Assembly: GCA_028284935.1 (NCBI GenBank)
Contig: JANQQQ010000038.1
Location: 1 to 64,000 of the forward strand
Direction: 5' to 3'
DNA length: 64,000 nt
Source of the DNA: Croceivirga sp.
GTDB lineage: Bacteria; Bacteroidota; Bacteroidia; Flavobacteriales; Flavobacteriaceae
A program made the translations under genes and the position numbers. Shown one piece after another: positions 1,323-14,884 of this stretch. The notes under the pieces were generated by a model that was not told the origin of the DNA, ran no database searches, and saw only the letters and a list, made by a program, of their open reading frames with translations. Each line of letters starts with the position of its first letter. The stretch's first letter is position 1.

Positions 1323-4300
1323 TTAGATAAATACTGGTTTGATGTCTTTGGTAATGTAGACTAAAATTCTATTTAAAACAACATATCCCATTCTCTGCAA
1401 TACATATGCATACTTTTCTAACTGCCTTTTATGAGACTCCACAAATTTACCAGTTTTGTAGTCCATAAGTGTTACGCCATTTTTGGAAAATATGAGTCGG
1501 TCGGGACGTAGTACAGAGCCATCTGTATCCAAAAGTTCTATTTCATTTTTAGCGTTGATCTGTAGTCCAAAAAACTGTTTTAATTGGGGATGTTCAATAA
1601 TTGCGATAATTGCTTTTTTATACTGCTGTTGTAAATGAACAGGTATTGGCATAGAAGATACGGTCTCGGAAAATATTCGTTCGATATCTTCCCGGCAATG
1701 GATCCGGGCAAGAATATCATGAAGAATGTTTCCACGTTCAAGAGCCCCCTTTGTATTTGCTTCTCCCGAGCGAAGTGGAGAAGTCGTGACCCCAAGCAGG
1801 TTTTGGGGCTTGGTGGTATAGCCATAAGGGATACTACCACTTTCCGATGCTGTCCTTATAGTAGGGACTGCATCCGGGATGTCTCCAAACGTAAATGTTG
1901 AAGCCAAACTATCCCAAATTCCTAAGTGCTGTAGGTAATCTTCAAAAAACGATCCGTAAGAACTGCTTTTTTTGTTAGAGGTATAAACAAACAACCCTAA
2001 AACTGCCCGCGTTAATGCCACATAAAGTACGTTAATGTCATCAAGTTCTGAGGCACGAGTCTCATTGAAATAGATGTGTTGAGAAGCTTCGGAAAAGAAC
2101 TCAAGTTCTTTGGAAGCATTTAGCAGCAAATGATCAAATCCTGGAAAATCCATGTCGTTGACCGGAATCCAAAGCACCTTCGTTTTCAGAGGGTCATTGA
2201 TTTTAGTATCCGCGAAGGGAAAAAGCACAAATTTAAATTCTAATCCTTTGGCCTTGTGAACGGTCATAACCGTTACGGCATTCAGATTGTCGGGCATGGA
2301 AATGGCCAAAGCATCTTTTTTTAGTTCCCAATACCTTAGAAAATCATAAATGGTTCCACCAATCTTTTGATCAAGTTCAATAACCTGGTCCATAAAGTAG
2401 GTAACATATGCATTGGAATGTGGAGCCAGGTCAAAGCATGCAATCGCTCTTTCTAAAATATCAAGAGTACTTAGCGTCCCCAATACGTAAATATCAAAAC
2501 CGTATTGCGTTGCTAAGAAATGTGGCAGCTCGTCAAGGTGTTGCACGATCCTATCGTGTTTATTGTCGGCATTTTTCAACAAGTATTCGAGTATCTCATA
2601 CCGGGAGGCCCGTTCTTCCGGACTATCCATAAACTGTAGTAATGCTACAAGAAAGGAGACCTCCCGGCTATTTTTTAGTAATAGACCCTCTGAAGAAATT
2701 ACCGGAATAGCATTATTTGTCAGGTGATTGGCAAGCAGTACCCCCTGATTATTTTTACGCACTAATATGGTAACATCCCTGTAGGCGAAGCCTTTAGCAG
2801 TTAACACTTCTATGGTTTTTACCACTTTAGTTAAGTAAAAATCCGTGTCTGAGTCGTATCCTTCTTCTAAAAACGAGATTTCAACGTAGCCCCCCTTTTT
2901 CTGAGCTGTCTTTTGATTGCTGGTAGCTTCATATAACTTTTTGTAAGCAGGGTTAGCAAATTTTGAGGCAATGTGGCTGAAAAAACCATTGTTGAAACAT
3001 ATTATTTCGTCATAACTTCTCCAGTTGGTATGTAAAAAGTGTAAGGAAGGAGTAATAGAAAACGGATTAACCAAACCCTCACAAAGTTGCAGCAGTTGCT
3101 CAGGATTTCCACCACGCCACCTGTAGATGGCCTGTTTCACATCACCAACAAGGAACAATGATCCAGGATCTCCCTTTTGATTTTCTCCTTCCAAAGCATT
3201 CGCTATTAGTGGAATGAGATTTTGCCACTGCAAAACGGATGTGTCTTGAAACTCATCTATATAATAGTGGCGATATCTTTCCCCCAACCTTTCGTAGATA
3301 TACGGCGCAGGTTGATTTCGGATTTCATTGGAAATTAACTTGTTAAATTCAGAAATGTGAAGGATTTCCTTGTCACTTTGCGTTTTTTTTAGCGCCTTGG
3401 AAATTTCGTTAAGCACCGTTAGGGGTAGCACATTGTTGTAGGCATTTTTGTAGAATCGATACTGGTAAACCCCCTTCTTGATACTCAGATATATCTGGAG
3501 AAGTTCTGCGCTTAATGCCGTTGTTGACTTAAGTACACTTTTCTTTACAATGGAATTTCGAGTAAGATTTTCTTCAATTTGGTTTTGGTAAAGCTTTCTG
3601 GGGTCTGTTTCTCCCTCAGCGATCTTTCTGAAATGATTTGGAAGGGTCAACCGCGGAAAGTCTTCAAGAGAAAACCCCATTCGCTCTATGGTAGCTAAGG
3701 CTTGTTGTGCACTATGGCTCACATGGGTTTGTACGGCGGTCATTTTTTTCTTAATGCTAGACTTTAACTCTGAAAAACGCAAGATTTCCTTTTTTTCCAG
3801 TTGTTGTAAACGGAGATAGTGTGTTTCATCAAAAAGGAGCCTTCCTGTTTTTTTGAGGTCATAAGAAATATCCCAGCTCTTTTCTGAATCAACTTTCTCT
3901 AACGCATAGTTGACAAGAATTCTGGTAATTTGTGGGTCATGGCCCACCCGGGAAAGGAGTTCACCAACAGCTTCATCCAGTAATAAGTCGGTGTCCAGTT
4001 CTACTTCAAAGTGCTGAGAGATCTTAAGGTCTTTTGCAAAGGCACGTATAATTTTATGAGTGAATTTATCTATGGTAAGGATTTCAAAAAAAGTATAATT
4101 GTGTAAAACGCCTTTTAAGGTTTCCCCTGCTCTTTGTCGCAATAGTGATGGTTCCAATTGAAGTTCATCGGAAATTTCCTTGAACATAGTGCGGTTCCCT
4201 GTGGGAACTTCTGCTTTTGAAAAAGCATAAAGGGTAGACAGAATGCGCTCCTTCATTTCGGCCACTGCTTTGTTAGTAAAGGTAATTGCCAAAAGCTGTC

Positions 4301-4415
4301 TGAATGTCTGCACACCGGGAGCAGAGAGTATGCGTTTTAAATAGGCTTTGGTAATTTGATAAGTCTTTCCTGACCCTGCAGAAGCGTTGAATATGTTAAA
4401 CCCCGTATTTACCAC
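1323..4415 (-). CDS. UvrD/AddA-like helicase with C-terminal nuclease domain
   Basis: Large (1030 aa) superfamily 1A ATP-dependent helicase, probably the AddA/RecB-like subunit of a recombination-repair helicase-nuclease. Walker A is NASAGSGKT at residues 10-18; YIDEFQDTS (Walker B, about 388) and GDVKQAIYRWRG (motif III, about 425) follow, then VMTVHKAKGLEFKFV (motif V, about 735) and LYVALTRA (motif VI). The last 100 residues carry a PD-(D/E)XK-type nuclease core with LMDYKTGK near 990. Start is a GTG at 4415: no in-frame ATG exists upstream before a stop and Walker A sits at the very N-terminus as usual. The expected AddB-like nuclease partner is not in this window. Likely cotranscribed with kbl (3-base gap). 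Confidence 0.88.
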   Translation of the reverse strand: MVNTGFNIFNASAGSGKTYQITKAYLKRILSAPGVQTFRQLLAITFTNKAVAEMKERILSTLYAFSKAEVPTGNRTMFKEISDELQLEPSLLRQRAGETLKGVLHNYTFFEILTIDKFTHKIIRAFAKDLKISQHFEVELDTDLLLDEAVGELLSRVGHDPQITRILVNYALEKVDSEKSWDISYDLKKTGRLLFDETHYLRLQQLEKKEILRFSELKSSIKKKMTAVQTHVSHSAQQALATIERMGFSLEDFPRLTLPNHFRKIAEGETDPRKLYQNQIEENLTRNSIVKKSVLKSTTALSAELLQIYLSIKKGVYQYRFYKNAYNNVLPLTVLNEISKALKKTQSDKEILHISEFNKLISNEIRNQPAPYIYERLGERYRHYYIDEFQDTSVLQWQNLIPLIANALEGENQKGDPGSLFLVGDVKQAIYRWRGGNPEQLLQLCEGLVNPFSITPSLHFLHTNWRSYDEIICFNNGFFSHIASKFANPAYKKLYEATSNQKTAQKKGGYVEISFLEEGYDSDTDFYLTKVVKTIEVLTAKGFAYRDVTILVRKNNQGVLLANHLTNNAIPVISSEGLLLKNSREVSFLVALLQFMDSPEERASRYEILEYLLKNADNKHDRIVQHLDELPHFLATQYGFDIYVLGTLSTLDILERAIACFDLAPHSNAYVTYFMDQVIELDQKIGGTIYDFLRYWELKKDALAISMPDNLNAVTVMTVHKAKGLEFKFVLFPFADTKINDPLKTKVLWIPVNDMDFPGFDHLLLNASKELEFFSEASQHIYFNETRASELDDINVLYVALTRAVLGLFVYTSNKKSSSYGSFFEDYLQHLGIWDSLASTFTFGDIPDAVPTIRTASESGSIPYGYTTKPQNLLGVTTSPLRSGEANTKGALERGNILHDILARIHCREDIERIFSETVSSMPIPVHLQQQYKKAIIAIIEHPQLKQFFGLQINAKNEIELLDTDGSVLRPDRLIFSKNGVTLMDYKTGKFVESHKRQLEKYAYVLQRMGYVVLNRILVYITKDIKPVFI

Positions 4416-4535: not shown

Positions 4536-5144
4536 ATGGCTTTTGAACTACCAAATTTGCCCTATGCATATGATGCACTCGAGCCTCATATAGATGCTCG
4601 TACCATGGAGATACATCACACCAAACACCACAACGGATACACCACAAAACTCAATGGAGCCGTTGCGGGAACTGATCTGGAGAGTAAAGATATTGAAGGG
4701 ATCCTATCAGGATTAGATATGAGTAATACTGCGGTTCGAAATAATGGCGGAGGTTTTTACAACCACAATTTGTTTTGGGAGGTAATGTCTCCCGATGGAG
4801 GTGGGGCCCCAAAGGGACAACTTGCTACTGCAATTGATGATGTATTTGGGTCATTAGATGGATTTAAAGAACAATTTAGCGCTGCTGCGGGAAGCCGATT
4901 TGGATCTGGCTGGGCATGGTTATGTGTTCAAGCCGGTGGTAAACTAGAAATCTGTTCCACACCAAATCAGGATAACCCAATAATGCCGGGAGTTGGGTGT
5001 GAAGGATGGCCTATTTTAGGACTGGACGTTTGGGAACACGCCTATTACCTTAACTATCAAAATAGAAGACCAGATTACATTTCTGCTTTTTTTAATGTGA
5101 TTAATTGGGATAAAGTTGAAGAAAATTACGCGGCAAAAATGTAG
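4536..5144 (+). CDS. sodA: superoxide dismutase, Fe/Mn type
   Basis: Converts superoxide to hydrogen peroxide and oxygen; 202 residues, normal length for a cytosolic Fe/Mn enzyme with no signal peptide. The four metal ligands are visible: His in [12 protein letters not shown] near residue 27, His in NHNLFWE near 79, and Asp and His in [12 protein letters not shown] near 163-167. The motif after the last ligands ([16 protein letters not shown]) is also typical. Metal preference (Fe, Mn or cambialistic) cannot be decided from sequence here. Monocistronic: it has its own upstream -7 box and a strong terminator just after the stop. Confidence 0.95.
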
Positions 5145-5166: not shown

Positions 5167-5197
5167 AAAAAAGTGCGGAATTTTTCCGCACTTTTTT
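5167..5197 (+). terminator. terminator of sodA
   Basis: AAAAAAGTGCGG and CCGCACTTTTTT are perfect 12-base inverted arms around a 7-base loop, 22 bases after the sodA stop, ending in a T run. Confidence 0.85.
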
Positions 5198-5227
5198 GTT
5201 TTTAGGCGTTAGGTGTTGGACCAATAG

Positions 5228-5297
5228 AAAAGGGCAGGAAAGCTCCTGCCCTTTTCGTCCCAAATCTTACCATAAACTTAACCTACTTATGCTATGG
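5228..5297 (-). repeat. hairpin plus 39-base conserved element, copy 1
   Basis: A 12-base stem (AAAAGGGCAGGA 5228-5239, TCCTGCCCTTTT 5244-5255) is followed by a 39-base element at 5259-5297 that starts CCCAAATCTTACC and ends TTATGCTATGG. Copies 2 and 3 share the 39-mer almost base for base (only A/G at its 16th base differs here), while the hairpin stems are unrelated in sequence. Read on the reverse strand, TAGTTTTG (5305-5298), a perfect -7 box, directly precedes the element and the hairpin follows it like a terminator, so a small leftward RNA is one reading. No protein is encoded in 5198-5802. Confidence 0.85.
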
Positions 5298-5411
5298 CAA
5301 AACTAAATTACTGGTATTGTGGGAAATAACAAAGAAAATTTAAGAATTTTTTGATGGTTGGGCTTCCTTCAAAAACGAATTTTTTAACATAATTCATTGG
5401 GATTCAAACAT

Positions 5412-5481
5412 AAAGAAGGCGGATGTTAGTCCGCCTTCTTTCCCCAAATCTTACCATGAACTTAACCTACTTATGCTATGG
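5412..5481 (-). repeat. hairpin plus 39-base conserved element, copy 2
   Basis: Stem AAAGAAGGCGGA (5412-5423) pairs with TCCGCCTTCTTT (5430-5441); the 39-base element follows at 5443-5481, identical to copy 3. On the reverse strand TACATTTG (5494-5487), a perfect TAnnTTTG, lies just before the element, so a transcript of about 70 bases ending in the hairpin is possible. Distance to copy 1 is 184 bases. Confidence 0.85.
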
Positions 5482-5630
5482 TTCTTCAAATGTAGGTCAA
5501 GGCTCCTTCAGGGGGAAAGCTTTTTAGATAAACGTCCCTTAATTTGGTTGAAATGCCACTTGGGAAACAAAGGACTATAAAAGATTAAGAAAAGGAGTAC
5601 ATCGCCTGAAGCCATAGGTTGTACCCAATA

Positions 5631-5700
5631 AAAAAGGTGGAGAAGTCTCCACCTTTTTTGCCCCAAATCTTACCATGAACTTAACCTACTTATGCTATGG
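5631..5700 (-). repeat. hairpin plus 39-base conserved element, copy 3
   Basis: Stem AAAAAGGTGGAGA (5631-5643) pairs with TCTCCACCTTTTTT (5646-5659); element at 5662-5700, identical to copy 2 and 219 bases from it. The reverse-strand -7 candidate here is imperfect (TAGTTATTG). The hairpins in all three copies are flanked by A and T runs and could terminate RNA in either direction. Confidence 0.85.
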
Positions 5701-5802
5701 CAATAACTAATTTAGATTCCTGACAGGGTAGTTTATTAAAAAGACGGTGAAGGGTCATTTTTGTCGATGAAATACCTGTTTTGGATGACTAAGTGTAAAA
5801 AA

Positions 5803-7701
5803 TCAATAGGCCCGTTCATTTTTACCTTCATAGAAATTAATGAAAGCACGATTAACCACCCGGTTGCCACCTGGCGTTGGGTAATTACCGGTAAAATACC
5901 AATCCCCTAGATTTTGTGGACATGCTTGATGCAAGTTCTCAATGGTTTGATAGATAATCTGAACTTTGGCATTGATATCTTTTGGACTTAGTAGTTCAGC
6001 AATTTTTTGTGAAATTTCCTTGGCGGTAAAGGGAGCGTAAAGTTTTTGAACATGGTTCACCACATTTTTATCCTTAACCTCTACCTGTTCCTTACATTTT
6101 TGATAAATGTCCTCAATTATATGGGTTGTACCACGGTCTTCGTGTAGTGACAGAGCTGCCCTAAAAGCCACGAAATCTTCCAATTTGGCCATGTCAATTC
6201 CATAACAGTCGGGATAGCGTATTTGGGGAGCTGATGAAACCACAACTATTTTCTTGGGATGCAACCGATCGAGCATTCGAAGGATACTTTTCTTCAAGGT
6301 GGTTCCCCTAACAATGCTATCATCAATAATGACGAGGTTATCGGTTGGTTTTACTGAACCATATGAAATATCATACACGTGTGTGACCAAATCATCTCGA
6401 CTACTGTCCTGAGTAATAAACGTTCGTAGTTTAGCATCCTTGATGGCCACTTTTTCAATTCTTGGCCTTACATCCAATATGGTGTGCAATTCTTCTTTTG
6501 TGATGTTTCCACCCAGTTTAAGGATTTGTTCTTCTTTTTTCCTGTTCAAATAGTTTTGCGCTTCTTTTATCATTCCAAGAAAAGACGTTTCTGCTGTGTT
6601 TGGGATATAGGAGAAAACGGTATTGGCCAAATCATCTTCAATGGCCTTTAAAATTTCTGGAAACACCAATTTTCCAAGGAGTTTCCTTTCTTGGTAGATT
6701 TCTTTGTCGCTTCCCCTGGAGAAGTAAATACGTTCAAAGGAACATGCCTTACGTTCTCTTGGTTCCAGTACTTCTTCAACGGTCACCTTGCCATTTTTTT
6801 TGACGATTATGGCATGTCCCGGCTTCAATTCCTTAACATCATCGTATTGTACATTGAAGACAGTTTGGATAGCAGGTCGTTCAGAGGCAACTACGACGAT
6901 TTCATCATCTTGGTAATGATAGCACGGTCGAATGCCTGATGGATCACGCAACATGAAAGCATCACCATGCCCCATCATACCGCCCATGGTATAGCCCCCA
7001 TCCCAGTTCTTGGAGGATTTTCTCAAGATTTTGCCAATGTTCAGCCGTTCCGCGATGTGGGGAGAGGCTTCCCTTTTGTTGAAGCCTTCCTTTTTAATTT
7101 CTTTATAAAGCTTGGCAACGGCATCATCCAAAAAATGTCCGATTTTTTCCATCACCGTAATGGTATCCGCCATTTCTTTAGGATGCTGACCTAGATCAAC
7201 CAGATTGCCAAATAGTTCGTCAACATTGGTCATATTGAAATTCCCAGCAACAATAAGGTTTCGATGCATCCAATTGTTTTGCCGCAAAAAAGGATGAACA
7301 CTTTCAATACTGTTTTTCCCAAAAGTTCCATATCGGACATGGCCCAAGAGCAATTCACCGATGTACGGAATATCTCTTTTTTGAAGGGCTACATCATCCC
7401 AATATCTGGGGTTTTCCGCGATCGTGGAATTAATACGATCGTTTATCTGTTTGAAAATATCTTGAATAGGTTGCTGGGCCGAAGACCTTACACGACTTAT
7501 ATAACGCTCTCCAGGGGCCATGTCCAGTTTAATACTTGCAAAACCAGCACCATCTTGACCTCGGTTGTGCTGTTTTTCCATCATGAGGTACATTTTGTTT
7601 ACCCCGTAGAAAGCGGTACCATATTTATCTTTATAGTATTCTAAGGGCTTCAACAATCTGATGAGTGAAATACCGCACTCATGCTTAATAGGGTCGCTCA
7701 T
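5803..7701 (-). CDS. purF: amidophosphoribosyltransferase, long Bacteroidota form
   Basis: First committed step of purine synthesis: transfers the glutamine amide nitrogen to PRPP to give phosphoribosylamine. The glutaminase nucleophile is Cys9 (HECGI), implying removal of a short N-terminal propeptide. The N-terminal half has the class II amidotransferase pattern (NRGQDGAGF about 47, LGHVRYGT about 119, SERPAI), and the phosphoribosyltransferase PRPP loop is VIIDDSIVRGTTL near residue 480. At 632 residues it is over 100 longer than E. coli PurF, as in related Bacteroidota; extra segments lie around residues 80-110 and 370-420 and at the C-terminus. It has its own leader: the terminator of the upstream kinase gene sits 12-33 bases before its ATG. 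Confidence 0.93.
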   Translation of the reverse strand: MSDPIKHECGISLIRLLKPLEYYKDKYGTAFYGVNKMYLMMEKQHNRGQDGAGFASIKLDMAPGERYISRVRSSAQQPIQDIFKQINDRINSTIAENPRYWDDVALQKRDIPYIGELLLGHVRYGTFGKNSIESVHPFLRQNNWMHRNLIVAGNFNMTNVDELFGNLVDLGQHPKEMADTITVMEKIGHFLDDAVAKLYKEIKKEGFNKREASPHIAERLNIGKILRKSSKNWDGGYTMGGMMGHGDAFMLRDPSGIRPCYHYQDDEIVVVASERPAIQTVFNVQYDDVKELKPGHAIIVKKNGKVTVEEVLEPRERKACSFERIYFSRGSDKEIYQERKLLGKLVFPEILKAIEDDLANTVFSYIPNTAETSFLGMIKEAQNYLNRKKEEQILKLGGNITKEELHTILDVRPRIEKVAIKDAKLRTFITQDSSRDDLVTHVYDISYGSVKPTDNLVIIDDSIVRGTTLKKSILRMLDRLHPKKIVVVSSAPQIRYPDCYGIDMAKLEDFVAFRAALSLHEDRGTTHIIEDIYQKCKEQVEVKDKNVVNHVQKLYAPFTAKEISQKIAELLSPKDINAKVQIIYQTIENLHQACPQNLGDWYFTGNYPTPGGNRVVNRAFINFYEGKNERAY

Positions 7702-8778: not shown

Positions 8779-9480
8779 TCATAGAATTTGCTTTAAAAAG
8801 CCCTCTTTGTAGGCCCGACCAATGGGCAACCGCTGTCCTCCCACTAGAAGCACTTGGTTGCCCACGAGCTTATCGATGTTTCTGAGGTTAATGATGTGTG
8901 ATTTATGGATGCGACAGAATCTGTCCTCAGGGAGGGTTTGCAACCAATAGCGCAATGGCTCACTGCTCACATGTTTTTTCTTGTCCGTTATGATTTCTGT
9001 ATAGTCTGAATCTGAAGTAATGTGGCATATGTCATCTATCACCACTTTAATATGCTCATAACCTGATTTGATATAGATTTCCGTTTTGGAAGGTGTGCTA
9101 TCCGTATTTTGGTGACCGATATTTACCACTCCCCGTCTTTCCGATACTTTGTTTACTGCCCTTGCGAAACGCTGAAAGGAAAAAGGCTTCAATAGGTAAT
9201 CCACAACATTCAACTCGTAGCTTTCCAAAGCATACTCTGAAAAAGCTGTGGTCAAAATGATGTTTGGGGGATTGGGTATGGTCCTCAAAAAATCGATACC
9301 CGAAAGTTTAGGTAAGTGGATATCCAAAAAAATGAGATCTACCGGTTCCTTTTTTAAAAAGGTCATGGCCTGAATGGTATCGGTAAAAGTGCCCTTAAGA
9401 CCCAAAAACCCAATATCCTCAATATACTTTTTAAGGATACGCTGTGCAGGCGGTTGGTCTTCTATAATAATGCAGGTCAT
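8779..9480 (-). CDS. LytTR-family response regulator
   Basis: Two-domain regulator of 233 residues. Receiver domain 1-120 has the acidic pocket ED near 7-8, phospho-acceptor Asp in LIFLDIHLP near 53 and switch Lys in DYLLKPFSF near 104. The LytTR DNA-binding domain occupies about 135-233 (SDYTEI, FCRIHKSHIINL, LPIGRAYK). The gene overlaps the upstream sensor kinase gene by 4 bases, so the two form a coupled two-component pair. Targets are unknown; no sugar or peptidase gene next door gives a clue. Confidence 0.92.
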   Translation of the reverse strand: MTCIIIEDQPPAQRILKKYIEDIGFLGLKGTFTDTIQAMTFLKKEPVDLIFLDIHLPKLSGIDFLRTIPNPPNIILTTAFSEYALESYELNVVDYLLKPFSFQRFARAVNKVSERRGVVNIGHQNTDSTPSKTEIYIKSGYEHIKVVIDDICHITSDSDYTEIITDKKKHVSSEPLRYWLQTLPEDRFCRIHKSHIINLRNIDKLVGNQVLLVGGQRLPIGRAYKEGFLKQIL

Positions 9481-10487
9481 GAAGCATCCATTTTTTCCAG
9501 TTCCAATGATAGGGATACTTGATATTTATTTTGATCTTCCTGAATTTGAAGATGATGTTTGCCCGGATAGATCAGTTGTAATCTTTTTTGTACGTTTTTA
9601 AGTCCAATCCCATTGGCAACGGTATCTAGTCCATGGGCGTACCCATAGTTGTTAGCGCAATTAAAAAGCAAAATGTTTCCCTTCATTTGGATTTCTATGG
9701 TAATCTTAATGTTCTCGGTTTGCCACGATTGACTATGTTTAAAAGCATTTTCGATAAACACGATTAAGATCAACGGAGCAATCTTATATCCTTTGTTAAT
9801 GCCCTGTGCATCGAACACCACAGCTCCCCTATTTTCAATCTGCATGTTGCTTAATTTGATAAAATTGTTCAACTGTTCCACTTCTTTTTCCAGAGACACA
9901 AACTTTTCCTTGCATTCATAGAGCATATAACGCAGTAGGCCACTCAGTTCCAAAATAATTTCCGGGGTTTTGTGGGAACCTTCAAGTGCATGGGAATATA
10001 GGTTGTTAAGGTTGTTGAACAAAAAATGGGGATTGATCTGTGACCTTAAAAATTGAAGTTCGCTTTCCTGGACCGTACTTTTTAAAACGTCTATCTGCTG
10101 TTGCTTCTGCAAGGCATCCCATCCAAATTTAAAACCACAGAGAATAGTAATGATTGGCAGTACATCCAAGAGGGAATAAAATACTCCTGGAAATCCTTTT
10201 GCCCTTTTTGTTCCAGCAAAGAAAATCTGTTCCAATACCAACTCTTCCAGTAAGATGACTACAGTAATGACCACAATCACATAACCAAAAAAAGCCCAGT
10301 ACTTTTTATGGTATAAAAACTGGGGCATAAGCCAATAGCCTATGACGGCGGCAGCCAATATATAGGTCAAAAAAAAGGCCACCTGATACCACTGAAATCC
10401 TGGGGATTCACTGTCAAAGGAATAGAAAAGGAAAACCAGGACCAGAAGCACCAGTTGAAAAACAAGTTCTCTTTTTGAAATGGACAT
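9477..10487 (-). CDS. LytS-like membrane sensor histidine kinase
   Basis: Sensor kinase of 336 residues with four predicted membrane helices in residues 8-130, then a short coiled linker and a His_kinase domain. The phosphorylated His is in SQINPHFLFNNLNNLY near 151-166; the ATPase part includes IENAFKHS near 244 and GIGLKNVQKRL near 293. No periplasmic or PAS sensor domain, so the signal is likely sensed in the membrane. Overlaps the LytTR regulator gene by 4 bases (ATGA type). Confidence 0.92.
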   Translation of the reverse strand: MSISKRELVFQLVLLVLVFLFYSFDSESPGFQWYQVAFFLTYILAAAVIGYWLMPQFLYHKKYWAFFGYVIVVITVVILLEELVLEQIFFAGTKRAKGFPGVFYSLLDVLPIITILCGFKFGWDALQKQQQIDVLKSTVQESELQFLRSQINPHFLFNNLNNLYSHALEGSHKTPEIILELSGLLRYMLYECKEKFVSLEKEVEQLNNFIKLSNMQIENRGAVVFDAQGINKGYKIAPLILIVFIENAFKHSQSWQTENIKITIEIQMKGNILLFNCANNYGYAHGLDTVANGIGLKNVQKRLQLIYPGKHHLQIQEDQNKYQVSLSLELEKMDAS

Positions 10488-14422: not shown

Positions 14423-14884
14423 ATGGCTACAGTACACAGGATATCTGAAGAATTGTTTGTGGATTCTTTTGATCTTATCGCGTTGCACAGTAATATGGAG
14501 TGTTATGCATTAGCATATCATATCAATAAGGTGTTCCAGATATTATTGGTCAGGGCAAAGAAAGATTTGGAAATAAGCACTTTGTCCTATCCCATATTTG
14601 AATATAATGATGAGGTCAATGATGAGGATTGGTATTTGGTTAAGAATGTGGTGCAGCAGGAAGAAAATGACGAAAACCAAGGGCTTTTCGGAAACAGTAC
14701 AACCGTAAAACTGAGCTATCTTTTGGCAGAAAGGAAGGAAGTCAATTACTTACTCAAATTGTATCCGGAAAATTCTGTGGAAATTAAAAAAAGAGTTCAG
14801 GCCATTCGCACAATACCTAAGGTTAGTATGGCCTATCAACTCAATATTGATCAATTAAAGTCAAAAAGAAACCTAATATTTTAA
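14423..14884 (+). CDS. IPExxxVDY family protein (unknown function)
   Basis: 153-residue protein with no signal peptide or membrane helix. The C-terminal stretch IPKVSMAYQLN matches the IPExxxVDY pattern that names this Bacteroidota family, here with Lys in place of Glu and Ala-Tyr in place of Val-Asp-Tyr. Its place between rnc and pyk is the family's usual place. The stop overlaps the pyk start by one base (TAATG), so pyk translation is probably coupled to it. Function unknown. Start at ATG 14423. Confidence 0.8.
   Translation: MATVHRISEELFVDSFDLIALHSNMECYALAYHINKVFQILLVRAKKDLEISTLSYPIFEYNDEVNDEDWYLVKNVVQQEENDENQGLFGNSTTVKLSYLLAERKEVNYLLKLYPENSVEIKKRVQAIRTIPKVSMAYQLNIDQLKSKRNLIF

Follow-up and report, generated by a model that had tools for sequence, protein, structure and literature searches.

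Tandem units beside sodA and purF in Flavobacteriaceae: probable regulatory RNAs of an uncatalogued family

Introduction

The FopS small RNAs (sRNAs) of Bacteroides pair at susC-type start codons and block translation, according to PMC11697453. In flavobacteria, the Rfp RNAs are conserved sRNAs, one of which (Rfp18 of Flavobacterium psychrophilum) affects protease mRNAs and is said in PMC9723704 to pair through its third stem-loop. Another flavobacterial RNA, Flavo-1 (RF01705), has a length similar to that of the RNA described here. On the side of transcriptional control, a LytTR-type operator consists of two repeats of 9–11 nt with 11–13 nt between them, and both this layout and the YpdB word used below are taken from PMC4847170.

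Here we analyse a tandem array in a stretch of 64,000 nucleotides from Croceivirga sp. (contig JANQQQ010000038.1, positions 1–64,000; hereafter, the window). Judged from sequence, its units look like an uncatalogued regulatory RNA family. No Rfam model reaches its gathering score within the window, and Flavo-1, which a sequence-only reading of this DNA had suggested as the family to test, is excluded: it has no match there and is found in only one of 15 related loci (L166), more than 1 kb from the unit.

Results

Three leftward units and their neighbours

The window contains three copies of a 39-base element (5259–5297, 5443–5481 and 5662–5700) that differ by a single A/G, as the sequence-only reading had claimed, whereas no chance matches are expected (window shuffled 100 times). 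The further proposal that each copy belongs to a leftward small-RNA unit, made of promoter, conserved RNA of about 40 nt and terminator, is borne out in outline by the sequence. On the minus strand, unit 3 (5630–5700) comes first in reading direction, with its conserved 5′ region at 5661–5700 and its terminator hairpin at 5630–5659; it is followed by unit 2 (5412–5481; conserved region 5442–5481, hairpin 5412–5441) and by unit 1 (5228–5297; hairpin 5227–5256), which comes last and carries a UUUAUGG ... GGGACG variant. On one side lies a superoxide dismutase gene (sodA; 4536–5144, plus strand) with a terminator hairpin of its own (5167–5197), and on the other, on the sRNA strand, a purF-like amidophosphoribosyltransferase gene (5803–7701, minus strand; family matches below curated cut-offs).

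Between a superoxide dismutase gene and purF is also the usual location of the tandem units elsewhere: both genes are present in 20 of the 32 array loci fetched, purF alone in 6, sodA alone in 3 (some lie at a contig end or are rearranged so that each side has a copy) and neither in 3. The units lie on the purF strand in all 26 loci that have purF. A RecB-like helicase gene beside sodA (1323–4415, minus strand) shares only 35–62% identity with its counterparts in the fetched loci, compared with about 70–90% for purF. Four copies are located away from sodA and purF (one each in L061 and L067, two in L062) and all have element and terminator; the −7 promoter box described below is kept in L061 and L067, whereas both L062 copies (5967–6036 and 14591–14660, minus strand) lack a TAnnTTnG box at the usual place. 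Contig C23 of the window's own genome (G000; 5.3 kb, L005:1–4000) starts with a fourth copy, 98 nt of it identical to unit 1, adjoining a second, divergent superoxide dismutase gene (82.5%) and RecB-like gene (49%); this could reflect a true duplication or exchange at the unit, or the contig could be a stray one.

Conservation, terminators and the 5′ fold

Across 62 distinct units from the window and its relatives, no variation is seen in 35 of the 39 columns of the element, in a set that was found with at most three mismatches in a 21-base word and is hence pre-selected for likeness. The core AGUAGGUUAAGUUYAUGGUARAUUUGGG is best kept in divergent members and the first bases of the element least. 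An A/AA indel in GGTA(A)GATTT separates two subfamilies and would disrupt a reading frame, so the units are probably non-coding.

To the left of the elements on the plus strand, the stems GGGCAGGA, GAAGGCGGA and GGTGGAG form perfect inverted repeats with T-runs. A terminator is present in all 62 aligned units, and the folding z-scores of the window's units are −3.6, −4.4 and −3.3. The sequence-only reading had held that the stems are kept by covariation-like replacement, and in part they appear to be: 67 cells show two-sided compensatory change, against 20.4 in shuffles and 5–22 in slid controls (counts inflated by the relatedness of the sequences), but the number of stem pairs with two-sided change (7, compared with 5.4) does not clearly exceed that of shuffles, 44 of 500 of which are as high. 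The 40-nt element alone folds no better than its shuffles, with −4.1 kcal/mol (z −0.10; 82 of 200 shuffles as good). Folding predicts pairing between its CCAT and ATGG ends, whose pairs almost never vary, so that covariation is uninformative on this hairpin; some divergent members (for example, L271) do not have it.

Distribution

A covariance model was built from the 62 units; the R1 scores of the window's units, all three in the training set, are 97.1 bits (unit 3), 91.8 bits (unit 2) and 89.7 bits (unit 1). In a family sample of 249 genomes that includes some used for training and the window's own, the model matched 208 genomes and 198 of 235 genera at E ≤ 0.01, with 1 to 7 matches per genome, and 201 genomes at E ≤ 1e-6. 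Among the seven weaker cases, the G231 locus retains part of the core (TTCATGGTAAAAATTTGGGG), and the loci of G020, G035 and G260 contain no core within two errors. A search for the 21-base word (at most three mismatches) was positive in 28 genomes out of 60, among them that of the window; one positive outside the family (L032) sits in unrelated sequence. In an order-wide sample, 29 out-of-family genomes gave matches at E ≤ 0.05, none above 36.1 bits, and the 17 family genomes with a match each had a best score of at least 66.5 bits. In a phylum-wide sample of 296 genomes, matches at 1e-4 came from 26, each a member of the window's family. An exact-pattern scan of named genomes gave at least 117 stretches; the 80 matches listed come from Flavobacteriaceae genera (Maribacter, Zobellia, Muricauda/Flagellimonas, Winogradskyella, Aquimarina, Flavobacterium and others) and, for the rest of these 80, from unclassified Flavobacteriaceae, Flavobacteriia, Bacteroidetes or Bacteroidota, from which we take the sampled family to be Flavobacteriaceae. 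The unit was found neither in G033 (one contig, 99% complete) nor in the same-genus genome G005, nor among viral contigs and phage and plasmid records.

The homologous copies that the earlier reading had asked for are thus present in related genomes by both word and covariance-model searches. This is a near-ubiquitous Flavobacteriaceae family, without an Rfam entry at threshold, and we are highly confident that it is a family of sRNAs. The RNA is not named in the titles, opening lines of abstracts and passages of papers that the literature search covered, so a prior description elsewhere is possible.

Promoter boxes and upstream half-sites

A TAnnTTnG box starts at −15 to −12 in 331 of 397 distinct units (those with enough upstream DNA, many of them from related species), compared with 3.4 in shuffles. 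By these position statistics, the −7 boxes on the minus strand of the window are TAAATTAG at −14 for unit 3 (5707–5714), an exact TACATTTG at −13 for unit 2 (5487–5494) and TAATTTAG at −13 for unit 1 (5303–5310). Exact TAnnTTTG boxes had been reported directly before two copies; the one at copy 2 stands, but the TAGTTTTG that touches copy 1 sits at −8, off the position of −13 that is conserved over the 397 units. Shuffles give a TTTG at −33 in 19 cases, compared with 32 of 270 real units. Given a −7 box at a fixed distance, the 5′ end of the RNA would be expected at about the CCAU of the element.

Further upstream, the promoter profile of the units other than the copy-1 type (250 non-redundant promoters) shows GC.TTT.A.C twice, 20 bp apart, the half-sites lying some 61 and 41 bases upstream of the −7 box. 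In the window, such direct half-sites, again 20 bp apart, precede unit 3 (GGTATTTCATC and GACCCTTCACC; 5746–5776, minus strand) and unit 2 (GCATTTCAACC and GACGTTTATCT; 5526–5556, minus strand), with scores of 24.2 and 33.6, respectively, in a promoter matrix trained without this genome (26.9 and 34.4 when its locus L124 is included). A matrix scan of 468 kb of this genome gave one further site (L298, also 24.2), which by our reading of the sequence precedes a GntR-like gene. As an independent measure, pairs of the Escherichia coli YpdB word occur at a period of 20 in 154 of 332 units and at a period of 21 in 66 of 332 (shuffles, about 8–9; two control words, 4–9). Counting either period, 172 of the 332 units carry a pair, compared with 13.5 for shuffles. 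At the threshold used, roughly half of the promoters that are not of copy-1 type lack the half-site pair. Activation of many copies by a LytTR-type regulator seems to us somewhat more probable than not.

Unit 1 is preceded instead by a block GTTATTTCCCACAATACCAGTAATTTAG (5303–5330, minus strand) that is conserved in copy-1-type units and unlike the upstream DNA of other units. This type of upstream region (CCAGTA-type) is found in 65 of 397 units and is very conserved; given this block of its own, unit 1 probably has a regulator other than that of units 2 and 3. The block includes a near-palindrome around AATACCAGTA.

A LytTR response regulator and a histidine kinase are encoded 3 kb from the array (8779–10487, minus strand). 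As a general partner of the array this pair was rejected: apart from the window, L046, L071 and L072 are the only three among 32 fetched loci in which it neighbours the array, so that it is a candidate regulator at most. In L061, a distant relative (36%) lies about 9 kb off.

Candidate pairing at start codons

Three CAU words of the RNA were compared with 382 gene starts of this genome. At true starts, complementarity reaches further than in shuffles for the UUCAUGG word alone (3 of 200 shuffles as high); for the other two, 115 and 173 of 200 shuffles are as high. At internal ATGs, the UUCAUGG word gives a weaker signal (25 of 200). Most of the seed signal is due to UUCAU facing AUGAA, a common start (20 of 500 shuffles as high), and on the upstream side of the start codon significance is not reached (74 of 500). 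Duplex energies for 152 starts show a mild excess at the start region (rank 10; 1 of 60 shuffles as strong), and for 382 starts, 3 of 30 shuffle means are as low; this excess can largely be traced to the frequent AUGAA start. In 11 genomes of the same genus, 33 exact-type sites lie outside the array, compared with 23 for the reversed pattern, with no clear excess. Of these 33, 31 were read and 11 are at the start of an open reading frame (ORF) of at least 60 amino acids; the remaining two, both in L302, are both at ORF starts.

Six SusC genes lie over the cut-off, of which five starts were scored, L076 having no start in range. Two are strong (L075, 0 of 200 shuffles as good; L078, 2 of 200) and three are not (L073, 21; L074, 49; L077, 25). 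Among 28 starts in loci of TonB-receptor type, several of them uncertain, at most 4 of 200 shuffles are as good in five (L075, L078, L086, L099 and L101). The strongest duplex of the 382 starts is that of a lipoprotein-like gene (L304, minus strand, base 565), where the promoter-matrix match is modest (15.8).

The best target lead is a candidate, tagaturonate reductase in a pectin locus, for whose starts (L371–L373) a duplex of −31 to −34 kcal/mol is predicted (0 of 300 shuffles as good), the gene having been picked after a pattern search and the three orthologues (G002, G004 and G007, same genus) being closely related. Its neighbours in G002 are glucuronate isomerase, a LacI-type regulator, a TonB-dependent receptor and a GH28-type pectinase. 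On the RNA side, the duplex would involve AUUUGG, UCAUGGUAA and AGUAGGU, interrupted by one mismatch and a short unpaired segment; the search pattern did not include AGUAGGU pairing, for which words of this kind are present at 7 of 471 starts. On energy alone the lead is weak, as a Gumbel fit to 470 starts gives about 20–40 equally good starts expected in 4,500. We consider a trans-acting sRNA that pairs near start codons to be the most likely form of action suggested by the sequences, and rate the start-codon pairing itself as a claim with the case for and against in balance.

Discussion

Our preferred explanation, which we hold by a narrow preponderance, is an array of paralogous trans-acting sRNAs of about 70–75 nt each, transcribed leftward, driven by regulators and blocking start codons. 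In such a scheme, the housekeeping sigma factor would start each RNA at about CCAU through the −7 box and an intrinsic terminator would end it, with a LytTR-type response regulator activating units 2 and 3 and another regulator acting on unit 1. The RNA would pair through UUCAUGGU(A)RAUUU, with help from AGUAGGU, with the start-codon regions of mRNAs, and this pairing would stop ribosome entry in the way demonstrated for Bacteroides FopS. Having several copies would supply dose and separate inputs.

Nearly every base of about 40 nt is fixed, which exceeds the need of one pairing seed, so a protein-binding RNA also fits. We therefore weighed a multicopy decoy RNA, for which CsrB-like logic is a model: the region of about 40 nt would titrate an RNA-binding protein, and the resemblance to anti-start sequence would be incidental. 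The 35 of 39 invariant columns (62 units), the several tandem copies and the weak evidence for mRNA targets speak for this possibility, but a conserved stem-loop is unsupported (z −0.10; L271), the sole CAU with a signal is the start-codon word, and the two partners looked for (RRM_1 and Hfq proteins) were not found in the genome (for RRM_1 of RbpB type, none at E ≤ 0.001, with a positive Bacteroides ihuae control); we consider the decoy rather unlikely. It is highly improbable, in our judgement, that the 39-mer is instead a DNA element (that is, a protein-binding or recombination site by the bidirectional terminators of convergent genes) and the RNA functionless. The identical 98-nt copy at the start of C23, beside a divergent sodA and recB-like pair, suggests exchange at the unit, and two dispersed copies (L062) have no usual −7 box; yet the anatomy is strand-specific, with the −7 box in 331 of 397 units and the terminator in 62 of 62, and the copies away from the usual site keep the terminator in 4 of 4 cases and the −7 box in 2 of 4.

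A third alternative, that the units are a flavobacterial branch of FopS (RF04319) by common descent, draws on a shared layout and on the pairing of FopS at susC start codons (PMC11697453). FopS/GibS and this RNA are both short RNAs behind a TAnnTTTG box with a conserved 5′ part, an intrinsic terminator, many paralogues and UUCAUGGUA..AGAUUU in common, and an unstructured 5′ stretch followed by an intrinsic terminator, as in FopS, is what the units have (the terminator is clear and the 5′ part folds weakly). The comparison with the FopS R1/R1′ seed gives 15 shared letters with a 2-nt gap. However, shuffles match this similarity in 149 of 20,000 cases and antisense start regions in 7 of 451 (in the other subfamily, 626 and 13, respectively), so the shared word does not go beyond what chance gives an anti-start-codon sequence. 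Membership was rejected on the model score of 20.4 bits (111-base search) against a cut-off of 56; the window's units are not among the six whole-genome matches of the FopS model at E ≤ 10, and the phylum sample, under stricter filters, gave 3 of 296 genomes at 1e-4, two above the cut-off and none in the window's family. The shared word also begins at base 22 here, after a 21-nt leader, and near the 5′ end in FopS; copies are mostly tandem at one place here and mostly dispersed in FopS; and an RRM_1 protein, as stated, was not found in the genome. Common descent with FopS thus seems to us very doubtful. In a different family of the order, the FopS model matched L352:1501–1569 (G053, 43.9 bits); this match was discarded as antisense of an ORF start by our reading of the sequence, and it illustrates that start regions can be picked up by models of this type.

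Algal polysaccharides have major degraders in the flavobacteria, of whose post-transcriptional control little is known. A speculative extension of start-codon blocking by these sRNAs, which as a whole we find possible but not probable, is that they are a core RNA of the Flavobacteriaceae, in which LytTR-driven tandem sRNAs tune carbohydrate (polysaccharide utilization locus (PUL), uronate) and envelope genes, independently of FopS and without RRM or Hfq proteins. A near letter-for-letter RNA in 198 of 235 sampled genera, often in several copies and with a conserved operator, offers a handle on a possible family-wide regulon. If the RNA works as FopS does, families of start-codon-blocking RNAs arose at least twice in the Bacteroidota or are older than thought.

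Among the other known systems, Rfp18 as described would differ from this RNA, which has at most two stem-loops; another Rfp RNA could be this family. The half-sites are a candidate LytTR-type operator, for which a period of 20–21 would correspond to a 9-mer with an 11–12-nt spacer or a 10-mer with one of 10–11 nt. Regulatory RNAs behind LytTR-type repeat operators exist in AgrA–RNAIII and VirR–VR-RNA, which belong to other phyla and have RNA sequences other than those of the family described here.
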